Source: a virus. From it: 42,785 bases of DNA. The stretch lies in IMG/VR virus record IMGVR_UViG_3300009609_000017, positions 1 through 42,785 of that record; one strand, 5' to 3'. Under the pieces are notes generated by a model. It searched no databases and was not told the DNA's origin. It saw nothing but the letters and a program-made list of their open reading frames with translations. This document shows, piece by piece, positions 7,112-35,998 of the stretch. The translations under genes were made by a program, and so were the position numbers. Positions within the stretch are counted from its first letter, which is position 1; every line of letters begins with the position of its first letter.

Positions 7112-8113
7112 GTGGGATTTTTCAAGCCTATAAATCCTAGATTAATCCGTACTCACCCCCTAGCTAGAAATATAGTTGGGGCATATCTCTTTGGATATGG
7201 GGGCCGTTATGTTATAGAACACGCTTACGGACTGCATCTTTCTGATGCTTCGGATCAGGGGACTGCAACCACCCGCGTTTACGGCAAAGTTTTATACACA
7301 AATACAAAAATTATATCTGGATCTGATGCGGCTCTTCCTAGCGGTAACAATCCATTTACGTTTGTGTATGGCGGAATCCCAGACCCTTCTACGACAGGGC
7401 AGATTTTTAACTACGGCACAACTGGAGCTAACGGACAATTTCGTGGATTTAATTGTGATACAACCACCACTATAAAATTCGGGCATTGGGGAGTTGGATA
7501 TGATTTGGGTGCAACCACAACCGCAGGAAATAACGCCACTCGAAGGGTTGTGTACGCTGGAACTCATGATGGAACGACGTGTAAGATCTATGAGAGACAT
7601 CAAGATGATGCATTTCACGAGATAGCTAGCGCGGCCCGCACACTTGATATACATAAAGGTGCTTCTGTTACATTCTTTAAATATGTAGGTGGTTCAGAAT
7701 ACCATACTGGATATACAAATTTCGTGTATTTCTACAACCGTGCATTAAGCGCGGCTGAATTATCTACCTTGACGGTAGACCCCTATCAAATTTTTATAGA
7801 CCAAGCTAGACCTTTAGTTTCGTATGTAATTTTAAATGCTGCACAGACTGTAACTAAGTCAGACGATTTAGCCCAACCTTGGACTGACGCGGCCACCGCA
7901 ACGCTTGGATTTCCAGCAGGTCATAGACAAGTTTCGATTGAAGATAAGATTATTCGTAACGGATCTATTAACGGGAATAATCTTGCGCTTCGAGATGGTA
8001 TTGGATTTGTTGTTGGCCCCTCTGGACCAGTAAATATCGCGGTAGCAGATCTTGGAATCTTCTTAGACGATTCTTTACTAAAGATAGGTTACGGAATTAG
8101 CGTGGCGGATTAG
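7112..8113 (+). CDS. LamG/concanavalin-like tail fibre or receptor-binding protein
   Basis: 333 residues, GTG start with AGGTGG upstream; an ATG two bases earlier is out of frame. Residues about 15-235 look like a laminin-G-type jelly roll: NIVGAYLFGYGG near the start, THDGTTCKIYERHQD and the classic closing motif FYNRALSAAELSTL. Such domains bind carbohydrate, so this is likely a receptor-binding or fibre subunit. The C-terminal 100 residues differ in character, beginning VTKSDDLAQPW, and share the acidic SD-type linker style with the next protein. An 18-base string including GCGCGGCC (7625-7642) also occurs in the fusion gene at 6580-6597. Confidence 0.65.
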   Translation: MGFFKPINPRLIRTHPLARNIVGAYLFGYGGRYVIEHAYGLHLSDASDQGTATTRVYGKVLYTNTKIISGSDAALPSGNNPFTFVYGGIPDPSTTGQIFNYGTTGANGQFRGFNCDTTTTIKFGHWGVGYDLGATTTAGNNATRRVVYAGTHDGTTCKIYERHQDDAFHEIASAARTLDIHKGASVTFFKYVGGSEYHTGYTNFVYFYNRALSAAELSTLTVDPYQIFIDQARPLVSYVILNAAQTVTKSDDLAQPWTDAATATLGFPAGHRQVSIEDKIIRNGSINGNNLALRDGIGFVVGPSGPVNIAVADLGIFLDDSLLKIGYGISVAD

Positions 8114-8122
8114 GATTTAAAG

Positions 8123-8602
8123 ATGGCAGGGCTAAATAATTGGAGTGATTCGGTGCTTGCTTCACCTGGATATGGTGTTGAAGCATTCGACTCGATGTTC
8201 TATGATAATTTTGATGCGTTTGAGCTAAGTTTTGGAACACCGTCAGGTGGCGGCGGGGCCGACCAGTTAGTACTAAGTGACGCCGTTTTAACTCAACTTT
8301 CATTAGCCCTTTCCTTCGGTGACTCATTTTCTTTTGCTGATTCAATTGCTAATTCGCAATTCTCGGTAACTGCATTTGCTGATTCGCTGAGTTTGAGTGA
8401 CGAGTTGGGTCTACGCCTAAATTTAGGTTTGATATTCAGTGACACAGGAAGTATGACTGATGGTACGTCGAGTGCCACTAACGATCAGTTGCTTCAAACT
8501 GTGAGTGATGATTTAAATCTTTGGTTAGATGCATTTGACTCTTTGAGTAGTACTAGCGAAACAACATATTTACGCCAGTACCTAAATGACGTGGTAAACT
8601 AA
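8123..8602 (+). CDS. Acidic SDxL-repeat tail protein, function unknown
   Basis: 159 residues, strongly acidic and almost free of Lys and Arg. Degenerate repeats of the type FxDSxSxSDxL recur: FGDSFSFADSI, FADSLSLSDEL, FSDTGSMTDG. Similar SxSDxL strings occur at the C-terminus of the protein at 12356-13966 (VSVSDTLVFAD) and, weakly, in 7112-8113. Repetitive beta-forming linkers like these are common in phage tail proteins. No catalytic motif is visible. The gene precedes the large nozzle-like gene. Confidence 0.5.
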   Translation: MAGLNNWSDSVLASPGYGVEAFDSMFYDNFDAFELSFGTPSGGGGADQLVLSDAVLTQLSLALSFGDSFSFADSIANSQFSVTAFADSLSLSDELGLRLNLGLIFSDTGSMTDGTSSATNDQLLQTVSDDLNLWLDAFDSLSSTSETTYLRQYLNDVVN

Positions 8603-12355: not shown

Positions 12356-13966
12356 ATGAGTTGCGTATCCAACATTACTCAAGTTTTGGCCGCGCCCGAT
12401 GTTCCAGCTTCGCACTGGTTCGGGAAGGGGCCAACTTACTACGGGCCATTTGAGTATGCTTCAAATCTTTACATTGCTCAAATCATAAATCTAACCACGA
12501 GTGGTCTCCAACCGGATGAGCCTGAGTATGATATTCAAATTCTTAAAAGTACAAATGGGGGCTTGACATGGGCAATAATTGCAATTCTTTCTCATCCTGA
12601 AATAGATTTTTTTGCAGAACAGAGATGTCAGTTCTTTATTTCGGGTTCAATAATTTACTACGCGTACTTACGTAACACTAGTACATTCTCTCAGATAAAT
12701 ATAGACCTCGGTAAATATGATATAGTAGCTAATGCCTTTTCGCATAGCTTTAGTACGTTGGGGCCGCACGTAGCTAACTTAGCTGATATTCCTACATTTG
12801 ACCAGATGAGTATTTCTCGTCAGGCATTTGATGCATGTATAGTGGGAGGGGTTATCTATGTTGGATATGCCAACACAGAAAGTGATCCTACTCCAGCCTT
12901 CGCGGGGCTAACTTATTATTATACAAAGTGTGCGGTGGCTAAATATGTCATAGCCACTGATACATGGACAGAAGTTCTTCCATACGCACAAACTGGAACT
13001 GTAGTTTACACGTTCTTCAGCATTATCCCAGGTGACGGTTGTTTACACACCTTTCTATTTCACCATACTTTAAATCCGCTGTTTCCAAATACGCCACCAC
13101 AGATCACTGAAGCATTGGTGCATTATTCACTAGACTATGACTTAAATTTATTGTCTTCTGAGACAATTCACACTAACATCAATCTTGTGGAAAACCTAGA
13201 CCATCCAAAACCTATTACATTTCTGGATGGTGGAACTAAACGAATTGCTGTTGGTGTATTTGAAGAGACTTATCATGTGTCTTCGCCTCATATCTTCAGT
13301 AGTCCATATTTTAAAATCTTCGAGGGGGCTAATGCATCAGTTCCTAGCTTCTCACTTGCTAGAACATTAAATGTCTCTGAGGTTGATCCCAACATCGAAT
13401 CAGTTTTTGGAATAATAGTTGGTAGCCAATATCAAGTATCTAATTCAGCTATCTATTGGACTGGAACAAATTATAGTGTTTTTGTGGATACTTTAACCGA
13501 AGGTGGGAGTTCTACTTTCTCATCTAAGTTATGGAAAGTAGACTACACTGGAAGTGCTTGGGAAGCGTGTGAAATTCTAAATACTCAGGATGTTAACACA
13601 TCTACTTCTTGGGTTCAAGTTGGAGTTGGAGTTTATATTGGAACTTCATATGGAGATTTCATTTCTTGGGGTTTAGCTGATAGAGATGATTTTGCTCCAG
13701 AAGGTTACTTCTATACCGCACTAATTGCAGCCTCAATTAACTTAAGTGTTAGTGTCAGTGATACGCTAGTATTCGCAGATCACGTAACTGTTCCAGTACC
13801 TTCAACCCCAGGAGGGGGTACGGAAGTTCATAATTGTCCTGATGTTATAATTTCTAGTGCATATTGCTCTAGCGTAAAGACCGCAGTGGATGATGAAGCA
13901 CAACTTCATAATTGTGATGAGGAAGTGTTTACCGAGACTGCACAACCATGTTTAGAGATGGATTAA
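12356..13966 (+). CDS. Tail protein with sialidase-type Asp-box; probable receptor-binding or spike protein
   Basis: 536 residues. KSTNGGLTWAII (around residues 62-73) is an Asp-box (S-x-D/N-x-G-x-x-W), the turn motif of BNR/sialidase beta-propellers. The rest is rich in aromatic beta strands with repeated YVGYAN or YIGTSYG type segments. Near residue 465 the protein passes into an SD-type linker (LSVSVSDTLVFADH), and the last 45 residues hold two copies of a Cys-containing unit, HNCPDVIISSAYC and HNCDEEVFTETAQPC. Carbohydrate binding is likely; enzymatic activity cannot be claimed because only one clear Asp-box was seen. Confidence 0.5.
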   Translation: MSCVSNITQVLAAPDVPASHWFGKGPTYYGPFEYASNLYIAQIINLTTSGLQPDEPEYDIQILKSTNGGLTWAIIAILSHPEIDFFAEQRCQFFISGSIIYYAYLRNTSTFSQINIDLGKYDIVANAFSHSFSTLGPHVANLADIPTFDQMSISRQAFDACIVGGVIYVGYANTESDPTPAFAGLTYYYTKCAVAKYVIATDTWTEVLPYAQTGTVVYTFFSIIPGDGCLHTFLFHHTLNPLFPNTPPQITEALVHYSLDYDLNLLSSETIHTNINLVENLDHPKPITFLDGGTKRIAVGVFEETYHVSSPHIFSSPYFKIFEGANASVPSFSLARTLNVSEVDPNIESVFGIIVGSQYQVSNSAIYWTGTNYSVFVDTLTEGGSSTFSSKLWKVDYTGSAWEACEILNTQDVNTSTSWVQVGVGVYIGTSYGDFISWGLADRDDFAPEGYFYTALIAASINLSVSVSDTLVFADHVTVPVPSTPGGGTEVHNCPDVIISSAYCSSVKTAVDDEAQLHNCDEEVFTETAQPCLEMD

Positions 13967-26968: not shown

Positions 26969-27283
26969 TTAGGTGTTCTTTCTTAGGAAATCCGCAACTC
27001 TCTTTGCGTTTAGCAAATTCATTTCTTCTTCAGAGTCTGGAACTTCCGTGATGCTCTTAATGTTGTAGATAAAAATGAACTCACCACCGCGCCAAAATCC
27101 GTCATTCTTACGAACTTCTCTAATTACTTCTTCAATTCCAGGGGCTGGTGAAGGTGGCGCACTAGGTGCTGGTAATAGCACGGGGGGATATGGAGTTGGT
27201 TCCGCGGAAATTAAATATTCCGCGGGAATAGTCCAAGTCTTTGGCTCTTCGCCTTCGGCTGAGTATGTCGCTTTAAATTGCAT
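26969..27283 (-). CDS. Proline-rich protein of unknown function
   Basis: 104 residues. An N-terminal strand segment (FKATYSAEGEEPKTWTIPAE) is followed by a Pro/Ala-rich linker around residues 30-48 and a C-terminal mixed domain containing GFWRGGEFIFIYNIKSITEV. GAAAAGAG precedes the ATG. Located just downstream of the SNF2 helicase gene. No family is recognised. Confidence 0.55.
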   Translation of the reverse strand: MQFKATYSAEGEEPKTWTIPAEYLISAEPTPYPPVLLPAPSAPPSPAPGIEEVIREVRKNDGFWRGGEFIFIYNIKSITEVPDSEEEMNLLNAKRVADFLRKNT

Positions 27284-30932: not shown

Positions 30933-31245
30933 GAGGAAAGTTAAAAAAGTTAAAACGAGCGGGGTCATGGGCTTACAGCGAGCGGAGCGAGCAACCCCCT
31001 ACCTACCCCGAAGGGGGTGGTCTGAAAGGGTGGTTTATGAATGAACTTTAATGTGGCAAAAAGGGGGTTTTGGGGCGCGTAAGTCCTTTAGAATCAAGGG
31101 CTTCTCCGCCATAGGTTCTAAAAAGATTAAAAAAAAATAATATATGTTAACTACCAATAATGAAGCTTTATACTTTAAAACCAATAAGTGCTTTAGAATC
31201 AACCACTTAACCCACATTAAGGGTTATTCATTTTCCAGGGGTCGA

Positions 31246-31257
31246 GGGGGGGGGGGG
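31246..31257. repeat. G12 homopolymer in a GGTCGA/TCGACC hairpin
   Basis: Twelve consecutive Gs are flanked by GGTCGA on the left and TCGACC on the right, so the tract would be the loop of a 6-bp stem. Such tracts are slippage-prone and can form quadruplex-like structures. The length may also be a sequencing uncertainty. Confidence 0.55.
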
Positions 31258-31283
31258 TCGACCTAGGGAGAGAGTTTTAGATG

Positions 31284-31408
31284 TTGACTTTGTCAAGCCC
31301 CTGATTTTAAAACTAGTTGCGTGAAAAGTAATTCTCCTGAAGTACTCCAGGGGCCGCTCTCGAAGTGCTCTGGAACCACCCCCTGAACTCGGAGTTGACT
31401 CTGTCAAC
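31284..31408. promoter_or_regulatory. Two TTGAC-NNN-GTCAA operator-like dyads
   Basis: TTGACTTTGTCAA at 31284-31296 and GTTGACTCTGTCAAC at 31394-31408 are perfect inverted repeats with a 3-base spacer. A related dyad with a 5-base spacer overlaps the early promoter. These look like binding sites for one dimeric regulator. Confidence 0.5.
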
Positions 31409-31754
31409 ATCATTTGTGATTTTGTCTTCTATATATGATGCGTGGGATAGGCCGTGCGGGGGCCAGGAGGGGCCGCCACGGGGCTGGCGCGGCCAGGGGA
31501 TACTCGGAGTTACCCCCTGTTTTCCACAGGCCTCAAAAATTCTGTGGAAAACTCGCTAACCCCAACGTGCTCATGGGGTTAGGAGGAAGTCCTTTAGAAT
31601 CATAGGTATGCTGTAAAAGTAGCACCAGGTAAATCGATTTAGTACTTTTGATTTTTAAAAGTTGGAGCCTGGTTTAGTGTTGGGGACGGGTTTTAGTTTC
31701 GATCAGCGAGCGGAGCAAGCGGTTAAAAAAGTTAGAAATACTTCCCTGGGGACC

Positions 31755-31783
31755 TTGCATTTTCCGGCGAAGCCGTGTAAGAT
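31755..31783 (+). promoter_or_regulatory. Sigma70-like promoter for the 31836 gene with a hairpin in its spacer
   Basis: TTGCAT (31755-31760), 17-base spacer, TAAGAT (31778-31783). The spacer contains TTCCGGCGAAGCCG, a small self-complementary unit that occurs twice more just downstream of the gene (32372, 32391). The leader has a GCTC-GAAA-GAGC tetraloop hairpin (31805-31816) before the AAGGA ribosome site. Confidence 0.6.
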
Positions 31784-31835
31784 CGGGATGTAAGCAAATT
31801 CACCGCTCGAAAGAGCATCTAGAAAGAAGGATAAG

Positions 31836-32309
31836 ATGGCTGCTACTAGCACGACTCCCGCCACCGGCGGAGTTGAAAAGTTGACGAAGGTTTACAAGTA
31901 TTTTGATCTGAGCAATTTGACTCAGAAGACTAAAGAGGTCACGGCGGATTTCACGCCTGCCGCGAGTGTTGAGGAAGGTTCAGCGCGACTCGCTGATGAG
32001 AAGTTGCTTTTGGGCGCGATCAATGATCGGCTTCGTAAATTGACGTTGGCCCAGGAGCGTAAGAAGGTAGTTTCCGAAGGCGCGTCAAAGACTGCGGTTC
32101 TGAAGTTAGCCGCCGGGTTTCGTCAAGTGTTGCCTTTCTCTGCGATGTTGGAGACTGGGCCTAACGGAAAGCCCACTCGTGAGTCGAAGGTAAAACAGAC
32201 GCGTGCGATCCTTGATGCGTTTCTCACCATGCCTTTCATCCTCGAGTCGCTAAAAGCGACGAGTGCGGTAGATGACGATGACGATGACGAAGGAGACGAC
32301 GATAATTAG
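31836..32309 (+). CDS. Orphan plus-strand protein with acidic C-terminal tail, function unknown
   Basis: 157 residues behind AGAAGGATAAG. The body is helical with basic patches (DRLRKLTLAQERKKV, AVLKLAAGFRQVLPF, RESKVKQTRAILDAF); the last 15 residues are almost all Asp. Such tails are typical of proteins that bind DNA-binding partners or ssDNA-binding proteins. The gene has its own promoter and terminator and lies alone between two oppositely oriented operons, with higher GC than its surroundings. It might be an early host-directed or regulatory protein; no family recognised. Confidence 0.65.
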   Translation: MAATSTTPATGGVEKLTKVYKYFDLSNLTQKTKEVTADFTPAASVEEGSARLADEKLLLGAINDRLRKLTLAQERKKVVSEGASKTAVLKLAAGFRQVLPFSAMLETGPNGKPTRESKVKQTRAILDAFLTMPFILESLKATSAVDDDDDDEGDDDN

Positions 32310-32699
32310 TTCGCCGAAGGCGAGTTCGTCGAAGGCGCGACGATAATTAGTCTAGCTTCCCCACTTGATTCTTCCGGCGAAGCCGCATTTTTCCGGCGAA
32401 GCCGGATTCATAAATCAGATTCATAAACTAAAACTAAATACTCTCTCGGCTCTCGCTCACCAGCGAAGCTGGGAGAGTTTTTTATTTTAGAATTAAAAAT
32501 ACTAGACGTTGTGGTTTTGCGCGTAGCGAGTCAGAAAATTCGGACGTGTGGGGATACCTGGAAGATGAGTTGACGCGTCTCAGGGCAAGTGTGAGCGATT
32601 TAAAGTTAGTTCTGTGAGCGTAGCGAGCGTTTAGAATTAGCACAAGAAAAACGATACGGAGTGTATTTAAATTGAACAAAGGAAAATCCCCGAAGGGAT
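32310..32699. other. Non-coding stretch with short GCG/GAAG hairpin repeats
   Basis: About 390 bases with no credible gene. It carries TTCGCCGAAGGCGA and GTCGAAGGCGCGAC type units, two TTCCGGCGAAGCCG copies (32372-32385, 32391-32404), a terminator (32443-32487), and GCGTAGCGAG/GAGCGTAGCGAGC strings. The 65-residue minus-strand frame here lacks support. Confidence 0.5.
32443..32487 (+). terminator. Rho-independent terminator after the 31836 gene
   Basis: ACTCTC at the left pairs with GAGAGT at the right, with an inner AGCGAAGCT-containing hairpin, followed by TTTTTTATTTT. It faces the end of the opposite operon. Confidence 0.6.
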
Positions 32700-32702
32700 T
32701 TA
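32683..32702 (-). terminator. AAATCCC-CGAA-GGGATTT hairpin ending the 32.7-35.3 kb operon
   Basis: A perfect 7-bp stem with a CGAA/TTCG tetraloop lies over the stop codon of the zinc-ribbon gene and is followed, minus-strand, by TTTTCCTTTG. The same stem recurs before the capsid start at 42584-42602. Confidence 0.55.
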
Positions 32703-32861
32703 AAATTCTAGTTCTTCCCGTTCTTCAGTTTCGTATAGCTCGCGCGGGTCTGACGTGATTTGTTCCGCGAGCGTAGCGAGAGCACAGGATTCACATTCAG
32801 GCCTAGTAGATGGGAATCCGCAAGTGTAGCAGACGTATTCGGGAGTGTTCTGTGTGTTCAT
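32700..32861 (-). CDS. 53-residue zinc-ribbon protein
   Basis: The peptide opens MNTQNTPEYVCYTCGF and continues RPECESCALATLAEQ, giving CxxC-x(8)-CxxC, a compact four-Cys zinc site. The end is acidic. AAAGGATAGATC precedes the ATG, and it begins 4 bases after the VWA-like gene's stop. It is the last gene of the AAA+/VWA-like operon, so it may be an accessory or substrate protein of that pair. Confidence 0.65.
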   Translation of the reverse strand: MNTQNTPEYVCYTCGFPSTRPECESCALATLAEQITSDPRELYETEEREELEF

Positions 32862-32864
32862 GAT

Positions 32865-33674
32865 CTATCCTTTGTATTCTGATTTGCCTTGTTGAAGTGT
32901 TCCGACGCCTGAAGCGACTTGTGTTTTGATCTTTTCGATCCATGCGAGACATTTCTCTTCAGTGTCGAAATGGTGCATATCATCGTACGATCCGGTTAGC
33001 GTGATATCGCCTTTGAGTGTGATTCCAGAATTGCCCCCCACTGATTTGGTTTTCAGGAAGTGTGAGATCAAATTGTACTCACAGGTGGTGAGAAAGTCTT
33101 TGTCGCAGAATGTCGCGGCAAGAGACGCTAGGTTTAGAAGTTCACTTGGCTTCTTTACTAAGATGCGTGACTCGTAACGATCCCCGGCCACTGTGTTGTC
33201 CCATCCTAGCCAAATCTCTACCTTGTTTCCACGAGCCTCAAGAGAAGAACAAAGCGAAAGGATGGCCGCGCCACGCATTATTTCGGTAGTGGTGGTCTGG
33301 TGAACTTCTGGGCTAAACACCAGCTTGATGTTTCGGCCACGCAAGTACTGGATCGAACAGAAGTGTTCTGGAATGCCTGAGAGCATCATTGGAATGTCCA
33401 ACGTGCCGCCTGCTACATCATAGACTCTCTTACGTGAGTTGATGAACTTTGAGTGGTCGAACTTCGTTTGGAATGCCTGAATCTGAGAGAGAATTGACGG
33501 ATCTGGTTCTCTCATGCGTTTGGTGTTAGGAGCCTTGTGCTTTATTTCGTACGGGAGTGTCTTGTAGGCTTGTTCGCAGTCCGTGAGATACGCTTCTAGT
33601 GAAAGCCACGTCACGATGCAAGATTTCGGGCGTGATGGGCGCAAGGGGTGCGGAACTTTGAATGAGTAGTTCAT
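32865..33674 (-). CDS. Degenerate VWA-like partner of the MoxR-type ATPase
   Basis: 269 residues with AAGGA before the ATG. The segments YDVAGGTLDIPMMLSGIPEH, NIKLVFSPEVHQTT, RGAAILSLCSSLEARGNKVE and IWLGWDN follow the order of a Rossmann-like VWA fold seen in phage proteins encoded beside MoxR-like ATPases. The MIDAS signature DxSxS is absent (VFSPEVHQT occupies its place), so metal-dependent binding may be lost. Such pairs parallel CobS/CobT and MoxR/VWA remodelling complexes. Fold assignment is inference from pattern and neighbour. Confidence 0.5.
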   Translation of the reverse strand: MNYSFKVPHPLRPSRPKSCIVTWLSLEAYLTDCEQAYKTLPYEIKHKAPNTKRMREPDPSILSQIQAFQTKFDHSKFINSRKRVYDVAGGTLDIPMMLSGIPEHFCSIQYLRGRNIKLVFSPEVHQTTTTEIMRGAAILSLCSSLEARGNKVEIWLGWDNTVAGDRYESRILVKKPSELLNLASLAATFCDKDFLTTCEYNLISHFLKTKSVGGNSGITLKGDITLTGSYDDMHHFDTEEKCLAWIEKIKTQVASGVGTLQQGKSEYKG

Positions 33675-33684
33675 TTGGTTTTCC

Positions 33685-35061
33685 TTAGATGTTGAGCGGT
33701 AGAATCGTTAGGAGTGTAGACTTCTTTTCGTATTCTTTCCAGATACACATATCGAGCGATTCAGTGAGCGAGAATCCCGCGTCTAAGCAGTCAAAAAGGT
33801 TGTACGTTCCACGGGGGGAAACTACTAGCTCGTATCCAGTGGGATTTGCTGAATCTCCCGTTGTGCATTTGTCGCGTAGCGTCTGAAGCCATTGGACTAT
33901 GCGTGGCGCGTTGTAGTTGACTTCTGGGAAGCTAATCGGCGTGGGGGCGTATGAAGCGACGGCTTGATCAATTTGGGCCTTTGTGTGAGTCACGAGGAAG
34001 GTTTCGAGATTATTATCGTACTTCCAGTTGATGAACTTGAATCTTTCGATGGCTGCAGCATCTTGACGTTGACGGCCAGGGAACATTCCCGAAGGGCCGC
34101 GAAGGAAAGTGTTTCCGTTGCCTATCACGATGCAATCAGGGTGTCTGGTTACTTCATGAAATGCCTCATCTTTGTTTCGACCTGGAAAGAAGTAAGATCC
34201 GTTATCTAGGGCATTATTAAGTTGCGTGAATACGCTGGCATTTGTGTTGTCCAACTCTGCAATGTCGATCACGCCACCGTTTTTGTAAATGTGGTAGAAA
34301 GGGGTCGGAACGAAGTCTCCATCTTTCTGCTGGAATCCAAAGATGGCACTGGGCATCGTGGCGTCGCTGAGAGCAATGAAGCAATACTCCAGGCCTATCG
34401 AGCCGTTGTGTGCACGTAGGCGCTTGGCAAGATGTTTAATCGCGTATGACTTGCCTGCGCCGGGTGCACCGCCGAGATAGATATTTATATCGCGTTTTCT
34501 GCAACGCGGATCGAGACGGAATTCGATGAGTCGTTCCAATGCGGGTACTTGGAAATGCTCGATCATTATTTGCTTGGCCGCTTTGACTGGAATTATCGGG
34601 GGTGCTTCTGGTTCTTTTTCTGCGATTCCAAGTTTGTCTGCGTTTTCCTTTGAAGGAACGTCTACAGGTTTCGGAGTCGGAGTTGGTTTGGGTTCTTCAG
34701 CTTCTTTCTGATTCCAAGATGGTTCCCATTTGGGTTTCGGAGTTGCGTTTGCGTCCTGGGGGTTCTGTGCGCCGTTAGGCGTGTTAGGCGTGTTAGGCGT
34801 GTAGGTGTAGGGTGCGTTCTTACCTTCGGGAATCTCATCTCGGCGTGCAGTTGTAGGGTGCGCGCAATTGTAGCAGCGCCAAACGTGTGGAACTAGAGGC
34901 ATGAAGGAACCCGAATATTTTCCTCGTCGTTCTTTTGTCGGACTGTAGCTCCAATTGAAGGCTCCTCGTGGGATGATCCGGTTGCAGTTTGGGCAATGTG
35001 CGTTTGCTGTGATCGGAACAACTGACGGGTCGAAGGTTGTGTCTGGGTTTAGATATGGCAT
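33685..35061 (-). CDS. MoxR/CobS-like AAA+ ATPase with N-terminal zinc finger
   Basis: 458 residues with AGGA before the ATG. Residues about 20-65 hold CPNC and CYNC, a zinc site; residues about 75-150 are a Pro/Thr/Lys-rich linker with TPN repeats. The AAA+ core has Walker A GGAPGAGKS (about 196-204), Walker B GGVIDIAELDN (about 259-269) with an unusual Ala/Glu order, sensor 1 VIGNGNTFLRG and an arginine-rich FPGRQRQDAAAIERF. This is the MoxR/CbbQ/CobS group, which remodels protein complexes together with VWA-domain partners. The target in phage infection is unknown. Confidence 0.75.
   Translation of the reverse strand: MPYLNPDTTFDPSVVPITANAHCPNCNRIIPRGAFNWSYSPTKERRGKYSGSFMPLVPHVWRCYNCAHPTTARRDEIPEGKNAPYTYTPNTPNTPNGAQNPQDANATPKPKWEPSWNQKEAEEPKPTPTPKPVDVPSKENADKLGIAEKEPEAPPIIPVKAAKQIMIEHFQVPALERLIEFRLDPRCRKRDINIYLGGAPGAGKSYAIKHLAKRLRAHNGSIGLEYCFIALSDATMPSAIFGFQQKDGDFVPTPFYHIYKNGGVIDIAELDNTNASVFTQLNNALDNGSYFFPGRNKDEAFHEVTRHPDCIVIGNGNTFLRGPSGMFPGRQRQDAAAIERFKFINWKYDNNLETFLVTHTKAQIDQAVASYAPTPISFPEVNYNAPRIVQWLQTLRDKCTTGDSANPTGYELVVSPRGTYNLFDCLDAGFSLTESLDMCIWKEYEKKSTLLTILPLNI
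34772..34801 (-). repeat. 9-bp tandem repeat GGCGTGTTA inside the ATPase linker
   Basis: Three in-frame copies of GGCGTGTTA-like units (plus strand GTTAGGCGTGTTAGGCGTGT) encode the TPN-TPN-TPN stretch. Copy number could vary between isolates without shifting the frame, changing linker length. Confidence 0.6.
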
Positions 35062-35101
35062 TTAGTTTCCTGGTTTGGTTTGGTTTGGATAGTGCTTTGT
35101 T

Positions 35102-35128
35102 GGCCGCTCTACACGTCGCGGAGCGGCC
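35102..35128 (-). terminator. GGCCGCTC/GAGCGGCC inverted repeat before the ATPase gene
   Basis: Perfect 8-bp arms around an 11-base loop, in the gap between the 35137 gene and the ATPase gene. On the minus strand it is followed by AACAAAG, not a good T-run, so it may act as an attenuator or protein site more than a full terminator. Confidence 0.45.
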
Positions 35129-35136
35129 TGAAAGAA

Positions 35137-35307
35137 CTATCGGTACAAATTAGTGATGTAGTTGGAAGGGCTAGTGATATCTATCAGGCCCAGGGTTCCG
35201 AATGTGGTGACCGTTACGGTTTCGCCATTGTGCAAGCGGAAAGAACATACGGTTTCGGTTAGAACATTGGCGCGTTCGAATTCGATGATTGAAGTAAAGG
35301 TTTTCAT
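35137..35307 (-). CDS. Small leader-position protein of unknown function
   Basis: 56 residues from the ATG at 35307. A further ATG at 35349 overlaps the predicted promoter -10 box and is unlikely to be transcribed. The sequence (MKTFTSIIEFERANVLTETV, then FRLHNGETVTVTTFGTLGL) suggests a small beta-rich fold. First gene of the ATPase operon. Confidence 0.5.
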   Translation of the reverse strand: MKTFTSIIEFERANVLTETVCSFRLHNGETVTVTTFGTLGLIDITSPSNYITNLYR

Positions 35308-35347
35308 ACGTTTAGTCTCGTTTCTGTTTAGATTTGTCGGACATTCC

Positions 35348-35374
35348 ATTATGGGATGACTGTGCGTCTGTCAA
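35348..35374 (-). promoter_or_regulatory. Probable sigma70 promoter of the ATPase operon
   Basis: Minus strand reads TTGACA, 15-base spacer, CATAAT. The -35 box is perfect and the -10 differs at one base; the short spacer suggests moderate or regulated activity. It would start transcription near 35341, upstream of the ATG at 35307. Confidence 0.5.
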
Positions 35375-35755
35375 GTCGTTAATTAAAGAAACTTAACATT
35401 ACTGGGGGTTAATCTAAAATCTAAAAGCACTTTAGTATACAAAGTTCGCATGGGATTCTCGTATCCTCTATATATGCACAGCGCGGGAAAACCGGAGAGC
35501 GGCCCGAATTTAAAATGGGCCGCACTCGCTCTAGAATCGCTCAGGCGCGTTTGTTTTTTCCAACGTCCGACACTGCCTTTATTTTGACTTGGGAGATCCT
35601 GTACCAAATTCAGTTTTGCTACTATAATGATTTTACTTATTTCCACAACTTGTGAATATCAGCGTTACTTCTATTGATGTACGCGCTTACACTTATATTT
35701 GGGCCATTGCGTTATCCAATGTTCTAATGTTGACTGTGTTTACTTTGTATGATGT

Positions 35756-35998
35756 AGTGCTTTGCTATGATTTTAGTTTATAGTTTATAGTATAGTGCTT
35801 TGTGATGATATTTATTTATGTGATTCACCTTAGCTAACTGTTAGTTTGCGGTTTAAAGTGCTTTGTGTTATGAAGTACTTTGTGTTTTAAAGGACTTTGC
35901 GGCCCCACCCGACTCCCCAACCCGCACCCCGCGTGTACTTTATAATTATGTAGTAGCCCCCCTAAAGAAAAATGTACTTTAAAGAAAAATGTACTTTA
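35756..35998. repeat. Iteron-like AGTGCTTTG / AGTACTTTG / TGTACTTTA array
   Basis: Copies of AGTGCTTTG at 35756, 35794 and 35857, AGTACTTTG at 35874, AGGACTTTG at 35891, and TGTACTTTA at 35934, 35973 and 35990. Outliers occur at 35091 (forward) and 35424-35431 (reverse). Spacing is irregular, 15-60 bases. Confidence 0.65.

Follow-up and report, generated by a model that had tools for sequence, protein, structure and literature searches.

The 42,785-base virus record IMGVR_UViG_3300009609_000017 from IMG/VR (hereafter the window, meaning the whole of this stretch) encodes on its minus strand a three-gene operon, consisting of an AAA+ ATPase of the MoxR clade, a partner protein of the Pfam family DUF7192 and a small zinc-ribbon protein (Table 1). 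On balance, the operon is read as a phage remodeller of the NorQ/NorD kind, driven by ATP and directed at a variable, probably host-side client. The analysis supports the MoxR homology of the ATPase, the match of both predicted folds to one solved complex, a near-obligate pairing of the two genes, the loss of the metal ion-dependent adhesion site (MIDAS) from the von Willebrand factor A (VWA)-like partner, a variant Walker B motif and the exchange of the cassette between related phages.

More than 400 phage records match the ATPase, including staphylococcal, listerial and mycobacterial phages in wide use, and annotations often label the gene 'porphyrin biosynthesis' and leave its neighbour as a 'hypothetical protein'. 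Once the second gene is taken for a VWA-like adaptor, two genes that lacked an explanation become a single machine open to testing. The exchange of the cassette among close relatives also indicates that the target varies, so that a client can be sought directly.

The ATPase and its VWA-like partner

The window AAA+ protein is a MoxR-clade ATPase, nearest to NorQ, CbbQ and CobS. It matches Pfam AAA_5 (1.3e-8) and PHROG 249 ('porphyrin biosynthesis'; 2.7e-26), and a profile search of the PDB returned midasin, CobS, CbbQ and NorQ. The best PDB matches of its predicted structure are NorQ and CbbQ, with NorQ found in the same entries as the NorD matches of the partner. The catalytic Glu, the Walker A Lys, the sensor 1 Asn, the Arg finger and the sensor 2 Arg are all retained. 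The canonical Walker B Asp-Glu reads Ala-Glu, a change seen only in the lineage of the window: Asp268 is present in 82 of 85 ATPases, the three with Ala being the window and two relatives, and a further relative, L197, shares the DIAELD sequence, giving four of four lineage phages. This Walker B variant is new with the present analysis. Asp266 precedes Ala268 by two residues in one strand, so that both point to one face, and Asp266 may replace the usual Asp. A zinc finger in the ATPase had been proposed in the first-pass annotation of this DNA; the zinc motif lies at the N-terminus and is conserved, with CxxC...CxxC in the window against CxxC...HxxC in its relatives. The module is modelled without confidence, with a predicted local distance difference test score (pLDDT) below 50 across most of its length.

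The partner belongs to DUF7192 (PF23822), which it matches at 2.5e-15 with 57 bits against a gathering cut-off of 27, and also to PHROG 1909. Neither family has an assigned function in the family libraries, and none of the papers searched names DUF7192. Its structure was predicted from an alignment of 93 sequences (pLDDT 87.6, predicted template modelling score 0.84). Using Foldseek, the top six PDB matches were all the VWA domain of NorD in NorQ-NorD complexes (E 4e-6 to 7e-3); the significant ones (E 4e-6 to 2e-4) were NorD VWA only, and the next two were also NorD. In a library of viral structures, the model matched, after its own family, CobT-like and VWA proteins. A weak hhalign match placed residues 119-155 on strand 1, MIDAS and helix 1 of gene 57 of HVTV-1, a VWA protein with the sequence DRSSS, while a Pfam scan of the partner gave no VWA or CobT match. 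The NorQ, CbbQ and midasin-type ATPases found by profile work with VWA domains (PMC13036017, PMC9976466), as does CobS (PMC8651126). Because of the NorD structure matches, these VWA-partnered relatives of the ATPase and the weak HVTV-1 profile match, DUF7192 is taken, with good confidence, as a probable VWA-like protein.

As the first-pass annotation had noted, the partner has no MIDAS. The DxSxS-T-D site is missing, and the DxSxS position reads SPEVH in all four lineage members. Across the family, that position is DxSxS-like in 2 of 93 sequences and NxSxS-like in 13 of 93. DUF7192 is best read as a VWA-type partner pared down to a minimum and, in most of its members, lacking MIDAS, which is a new reading. 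As a separate observation, some phages appear to have two DUF7192 genes, namely L098 (3592-4437 and 7508-8356), L030, L104, L106 and L107.

Pairing across phages

In the window the two genes lie on the same strand with the ATPase first, and 10 bases separate its stop from the start of the partner. A tblastn search with the ATPase found 422 phage records at E 1e-3. Ten phages were checked (Tunturi_4, LeBron, Sephiroth, YMC13/03/R2096, phiM5, Manatee Spring podovirus, A511, 812, LP-114 and the crAss-like cr115_1), and in each the next gene after the ATPase encodes a protein of 267-303 amino acids (aa). All ten of these products score above the DUF7192 cut-off, the crAss-like one having been read with code 15 on account of an in-frame stop codon. 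In IMG/VR, where the loci are not all independent, DUF7192 was found on the same strand in 77 of 80 loci located by the ATPase, the other three reaching a contig edge, and the ATPase was present in 79 of 79 loci located by DUF7192. The order or spacing of the partner deviates in a few loci (L020, L053, L094, L097 and L132). Among 112 less redundant neighbourhoods, only the ATPase and DUF7192 families were widespread, with 109 and 105 occurrences, respectively. A search for DUF7192 on plasmids with the LeBron protein gave no match.

The pair is therefore near-obligate and widespread among phages, and neither private nor new. Co-occurrence and a VWA-like fold for the 269-residue protein were the two points on which the first-pass annotation had staked its proposal of a MoxR-like ATPase with a degenerate VWA-like partner; the genes are paired in essentially every phage examined, and the NorQ-NorD complex is the best PDB match for both predicted structures, so that neither point counted against the proposal. 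Its description of the pair as undescribed has to be given up, since the proteins already fall into DUF7192, PHROG 1909 and PHROG 249, and descriptions of MoxR-VWA pairs in viruses go back to 2007 (PMC2147016, PMC4124505, PMC7824862, PMC7911831). The evolutionary distances of the ATPase and the partner are correlated (r 0.66, Mantel p 0.001), which is not taken to demonstrate that the two interact, since a common phylogeny would produce such a correlation by itself.

The zinc ribbon is kept 3' of DUF7192 in G001, G002 (also L186) and L197, the three relatives that with the window make up its lineage. It had no family match in Pfam, PHROG, PADLOC and CobS-type profile scans. As a general third partner it was rejected, being found in 9 of 106 loci against a background of 3% and consistently only in the window lineage. 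The next commonest neighbour of the pair is DUF3846, found in 23 of the 112 neighbourhoods (L151 5523-6170 and 22 other loci).

Exchange of the cassette between relatives

The case for exchange is built on the four phages of the lineage. Between the window and its sister G001, identity is 97% in the terminase and 80-99% in the majority of core genes, whereas it is 45% in the ATPase, 53% in the partner and 63% in the zinc ribbon. Phages with 97-99% identical terminases thus share cassette proteins of just 45-63% identity; capsid and portal are, like the terminase, conserved between sisters. The only other shared genes below 65% identity are three fibre-like genes and the gene at 26969-27283. 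Where residues are conserved, core genes agree at 0.646 of their four-fold sites, as against 0.446 for the fibre-like genes and 0.370 for the cassette, with saturation near 0.28 (cassette versus core, Fisher p 2e-13). By this measure the alleles of the cassette diverged before the backbones that carry them did, and so were exchanged rather than merely fast-evolving. The case is strengthened by L197, whose terminase is only 71% identical to that of the window, yet whose DUF7192 protein is the closest of all (62.7%); in the same comparison G001 has 54.7% for DUF7192 and 98.8% for the terminase. On these comparisons, the ATPase, partner and zinc ribbon form one evolutionary unit that is swapped between related phages in the manner of tail-fibre-like genes, a finding that is new. 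Among phages of the LeBron cluster, identity is 77-86% for the terminase and 61-68% for the ATPase but 34-42% for DUF7192.

The three fibre-like genes of the window (7112-8113, 8123-8602 and 12356-13966) differ strongly between phages with near-identical terminases; they match no family and are so named from position and divergence alone. The gene at 26969-27283, encoding 104 aa beside a helicase, diverges between the sisters as much as the cassette and the fibre-like genes do.

Proposed mode of action and alternatives

In the proposed mechanism, the AAA+ protein would form a hexameric ring, on which one DUF7192 protein would dock through its MIDAS-less VWA-like domain as an adaptor. ATP turnover would then twist or pull the adaptor and thereby remodel a bound client, with the zinc module of the ATPase and the separate zinc ribbon probably aiding in choosing or holding it. 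In NorQ-NorD, a finger of the VWA domain enters the pore of the ring and ATP turnover twists the partner (PMC13036017), and NorD uses its MIDAS for the client, whereas its binding to the ring does not depend on that site (PMC9976466). The loss of MIDAS from DUF7192 would thus imply a different, metal-independent way of holding the client, perhaps via the zinc modules. Divergence and swapping on the pattern of tail-fibre-like genes, together with a place among non-virion genes, point to a variable, host-side client; most likely it is a variable protein complex of the host or of a competing phage, engaged early to mid infection for takeover or counter-defence. A bolder version of this proposal, which may be entertained only tentatively, sees the operon as a polymorphic weapon exchanged by recombination, a metal-independent, MIDAS-less AAA+/VWA remodeller with a relocated Walker B Asp whose alleles would be matched to the host-defence or competitor-phage complexes that they dismantle. 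A PADLOC search with the four window proteins matched none of them to a defence system, and membership of a known anti-phage defence system was rejected.

Several points weigh against an ATP-driven remodeller with a host-side client. The Foldseek TM-scores of DUF7192 to NorD are low (0.25-0.35), which implies a VWA fold that has been reduced or has diverged. The MIDAS is required for NorD to act on its client (PMC9976466), and DUF7192 has none. ATP turnover may also suffer from the change in Walker B. Diversity of the pair is not universal, as staphylococcal phages keep it well (DUF7192 91-100% identical in 236 records).

Comparison with known systems places the window pair within DUF7192/PHROG 1909 together with PHROG 249, to which the window lineage adds the zinc ribbon and the DIAELD sequence. 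The best solved match for both predictions, NorQ-NorD of Paracoccus (PDB 9qh6 and 9qhd), likewise combines an AAA+ ring ATPase with a VWA partner; the window differs in that its partner stands alone at 269 aa, lacks MIDAS and has a low TM-score, and in having added zinc modules, a Walker B variant and no nitric oxide reductase client. CobS-CobT and the viral 'cobST' genes (HVTV-1 genes 59 and 57) share the gene order and an AAA_5 ATPase, HVTV-1 having the ATPase, then one small ORF, then the VWA protein. Their partners, unlike DUF7192, are large and carry a VWA domain with the MIDAS-like DRSSS. The p892 protein of the archaeal virus ATV, judged from its name, is presumably also far larger than DUF7192. 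ATV resembles the window in pairing a viral MoxR ATPase, p618, with an interacting VWA protein that stimulates the ATPase (PMC4124505), although p618 is a virion component linked to tail growth. The jumbo-phage MoxR-vWA pairs (PMC7824862) and the pair of phage 0305phi8-36 (PMC2147016) are also phage-encoded MoxR ATPases with a linked partner, but the vWA partner of the jumbo-phage pairs is part of a fusion with a metallopeptidase.

The ATV precedent (PMC4124505) also suggests the main alternative client, tail fibres. The pair would then be a virion-assembly chaperone needed for the maturation of a structural protein, with the variable tail fibres as the likeliest candidate, in the way proposed for p618/p892 and the tails of ATV. 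A proposal made for jumbo phages (PMC7824862) also speaks for this. The divergence pattern that the cassette has in common with the fibre-like genes fits such a role. The operon, however, sits on the minus-strand replication side, in the non-late portion of the window and apart from the late genes, the neighbours in several other phages are replication or small non-virion genes, and the 112 loci contain no consistent virion neighbour. Capsid, portal and terminase are moreover conserved where the cassette is not. Given the swapping of the cassette and the non-virion neighbourhoods, an intracellular client that varies and faces the host is preferred to a conserved one in the virion, and the chaperone explanation is considered unlikely.

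Less probable still is a regulator that binds ATP without hydrolysing it, in which the Walker B change would make the ring a switch or scaffold that binds its client rather than remodelling it. The near-invariant Asp is Ala in all four lineage members, which speaks for it, but the other residues listed above are retained and Asp266 on the same strand may compensate. Improbable to the point of near dismissal is a cobaltochelatase-like metabolic aid, in which the pair would act as CobS/CobT with a host CobN to raise cobalamin: the name of PHROG 249, the presence of CobS among the best PDB profile matches and the cobST hypothesis for tailed viruses (PMC8651126) speak for it, but the window ATPase gave no CobS equivalog match (relatives reach some 25 bits, with the cut-off set at 558), DUF7192 has neither a Pfam CobT/VWA match nor a MIDAS, and tail-fibre-like exchange is unexpected in a metabolic helper. 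CobS/CobT membership was rejected on the missing equivalog match and MIDAS. The 1161-aa window ORF, the sole ORF scanned with regard to CobN, had no Pfam match.

Gene layout and flanking regions

The gene order of the record is circularly permuted, with a scaffold-like gene at its end and the major capsid gene at its start. A search for a host across genome contigs gave no match. The minus-strand order of ATPase, partner and zinc ribbon drawn in the first-pass annotation holds, as does the single acidic-tailed gene converging on it; all are intact ORFs and all four recur in G001, G002 and L197.

Table 1. Features of the operon and its surroundings in the window.
Feature	Position	Strand	Basis or remark
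AAA+ ATPase, MoxR/NorQ/CbbQ/CobS clade, 458 aa	33685..35061	-	Pfam, PHROG, profile and structure matches
Putative zinc-binding module at the AAA+ N-terminus, residues 23-66	34864..34995	-	Alignments with sister phages and L197
Walker A, GAPGAGKS	34447..34470	-	G198, G203 and K204 invariant in 85 sequences
Variant Walker B, VIDIAELD	34249..34272	-	Usual Asp268 replaced by Ala; Asp at 266; Glu269 kept
DUF7192 partner, VWA-like (predicted), 269 aa	32865..33674	-	Pfam DUF7192, predicted structure, Foldseek
Lost MIDAS DxSxS position, SPEVH, residues 121-125	33300..33314	-	Directly after strand 115-120 in the model
Zinc-ribbon protein (CxxC...CxxC), 53 aa, third gene of the cassette, lineage-specific	32700..32861	-	Conserved position in relatives
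Terminator-like hairpin, operon end	32684..32701	-	Consensus scan only
Convergent protein, 157 aa, neighbour outside the cassette	31836..32309	+	Sister comparison
Terminator-like hairpin of the convergent gene	32460..32472	+	Consensus scan only
Proposed leader ORF, probably outside the module	35137..35310	-	tblastn and sister alignment

With its basic body (pI 9.7) and acidic tail, the convergent protein is well conserved and restricted to the window lineage. Its identity to the versions in the two sisters, 94% and 90%, tracks the phage backbone, and for that reason it was rejected as a cassette partner. The proposed self-contained island accordingly shrinks to the ATPase, partner and zinc ribbon. 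A small leader gene had been placed at the head of the operon; tblastn found no match to it in G001 or G002, the region is gapped in the sister phage, and it was rejected as an operon member. Library scans with the leader, zinc-ribbon and convergent proteins gave no match at a meaningful E-value.

The private promoters claimed for the operon and for the convergent gene could not be upheld, as consensus matches show little excess over shuffled sequence (12 versus 7.2 +/- 2.9). As for the terminators, hairpins do occur at the convergent 3' ends, but the count of consensus matches (11) is close to that in shuffles (7.3 +/- 2.7). The flanks at 30.8-31.8 and 35.4-36.5 kb are non-coding, gave no Rfam RNAs and, as described earlier, contain short repeats; these are AAGTCCTTTAGAATCA and GTAGTGCTTTGTG, located at 31080-31618 and 35753-35884 of the window.

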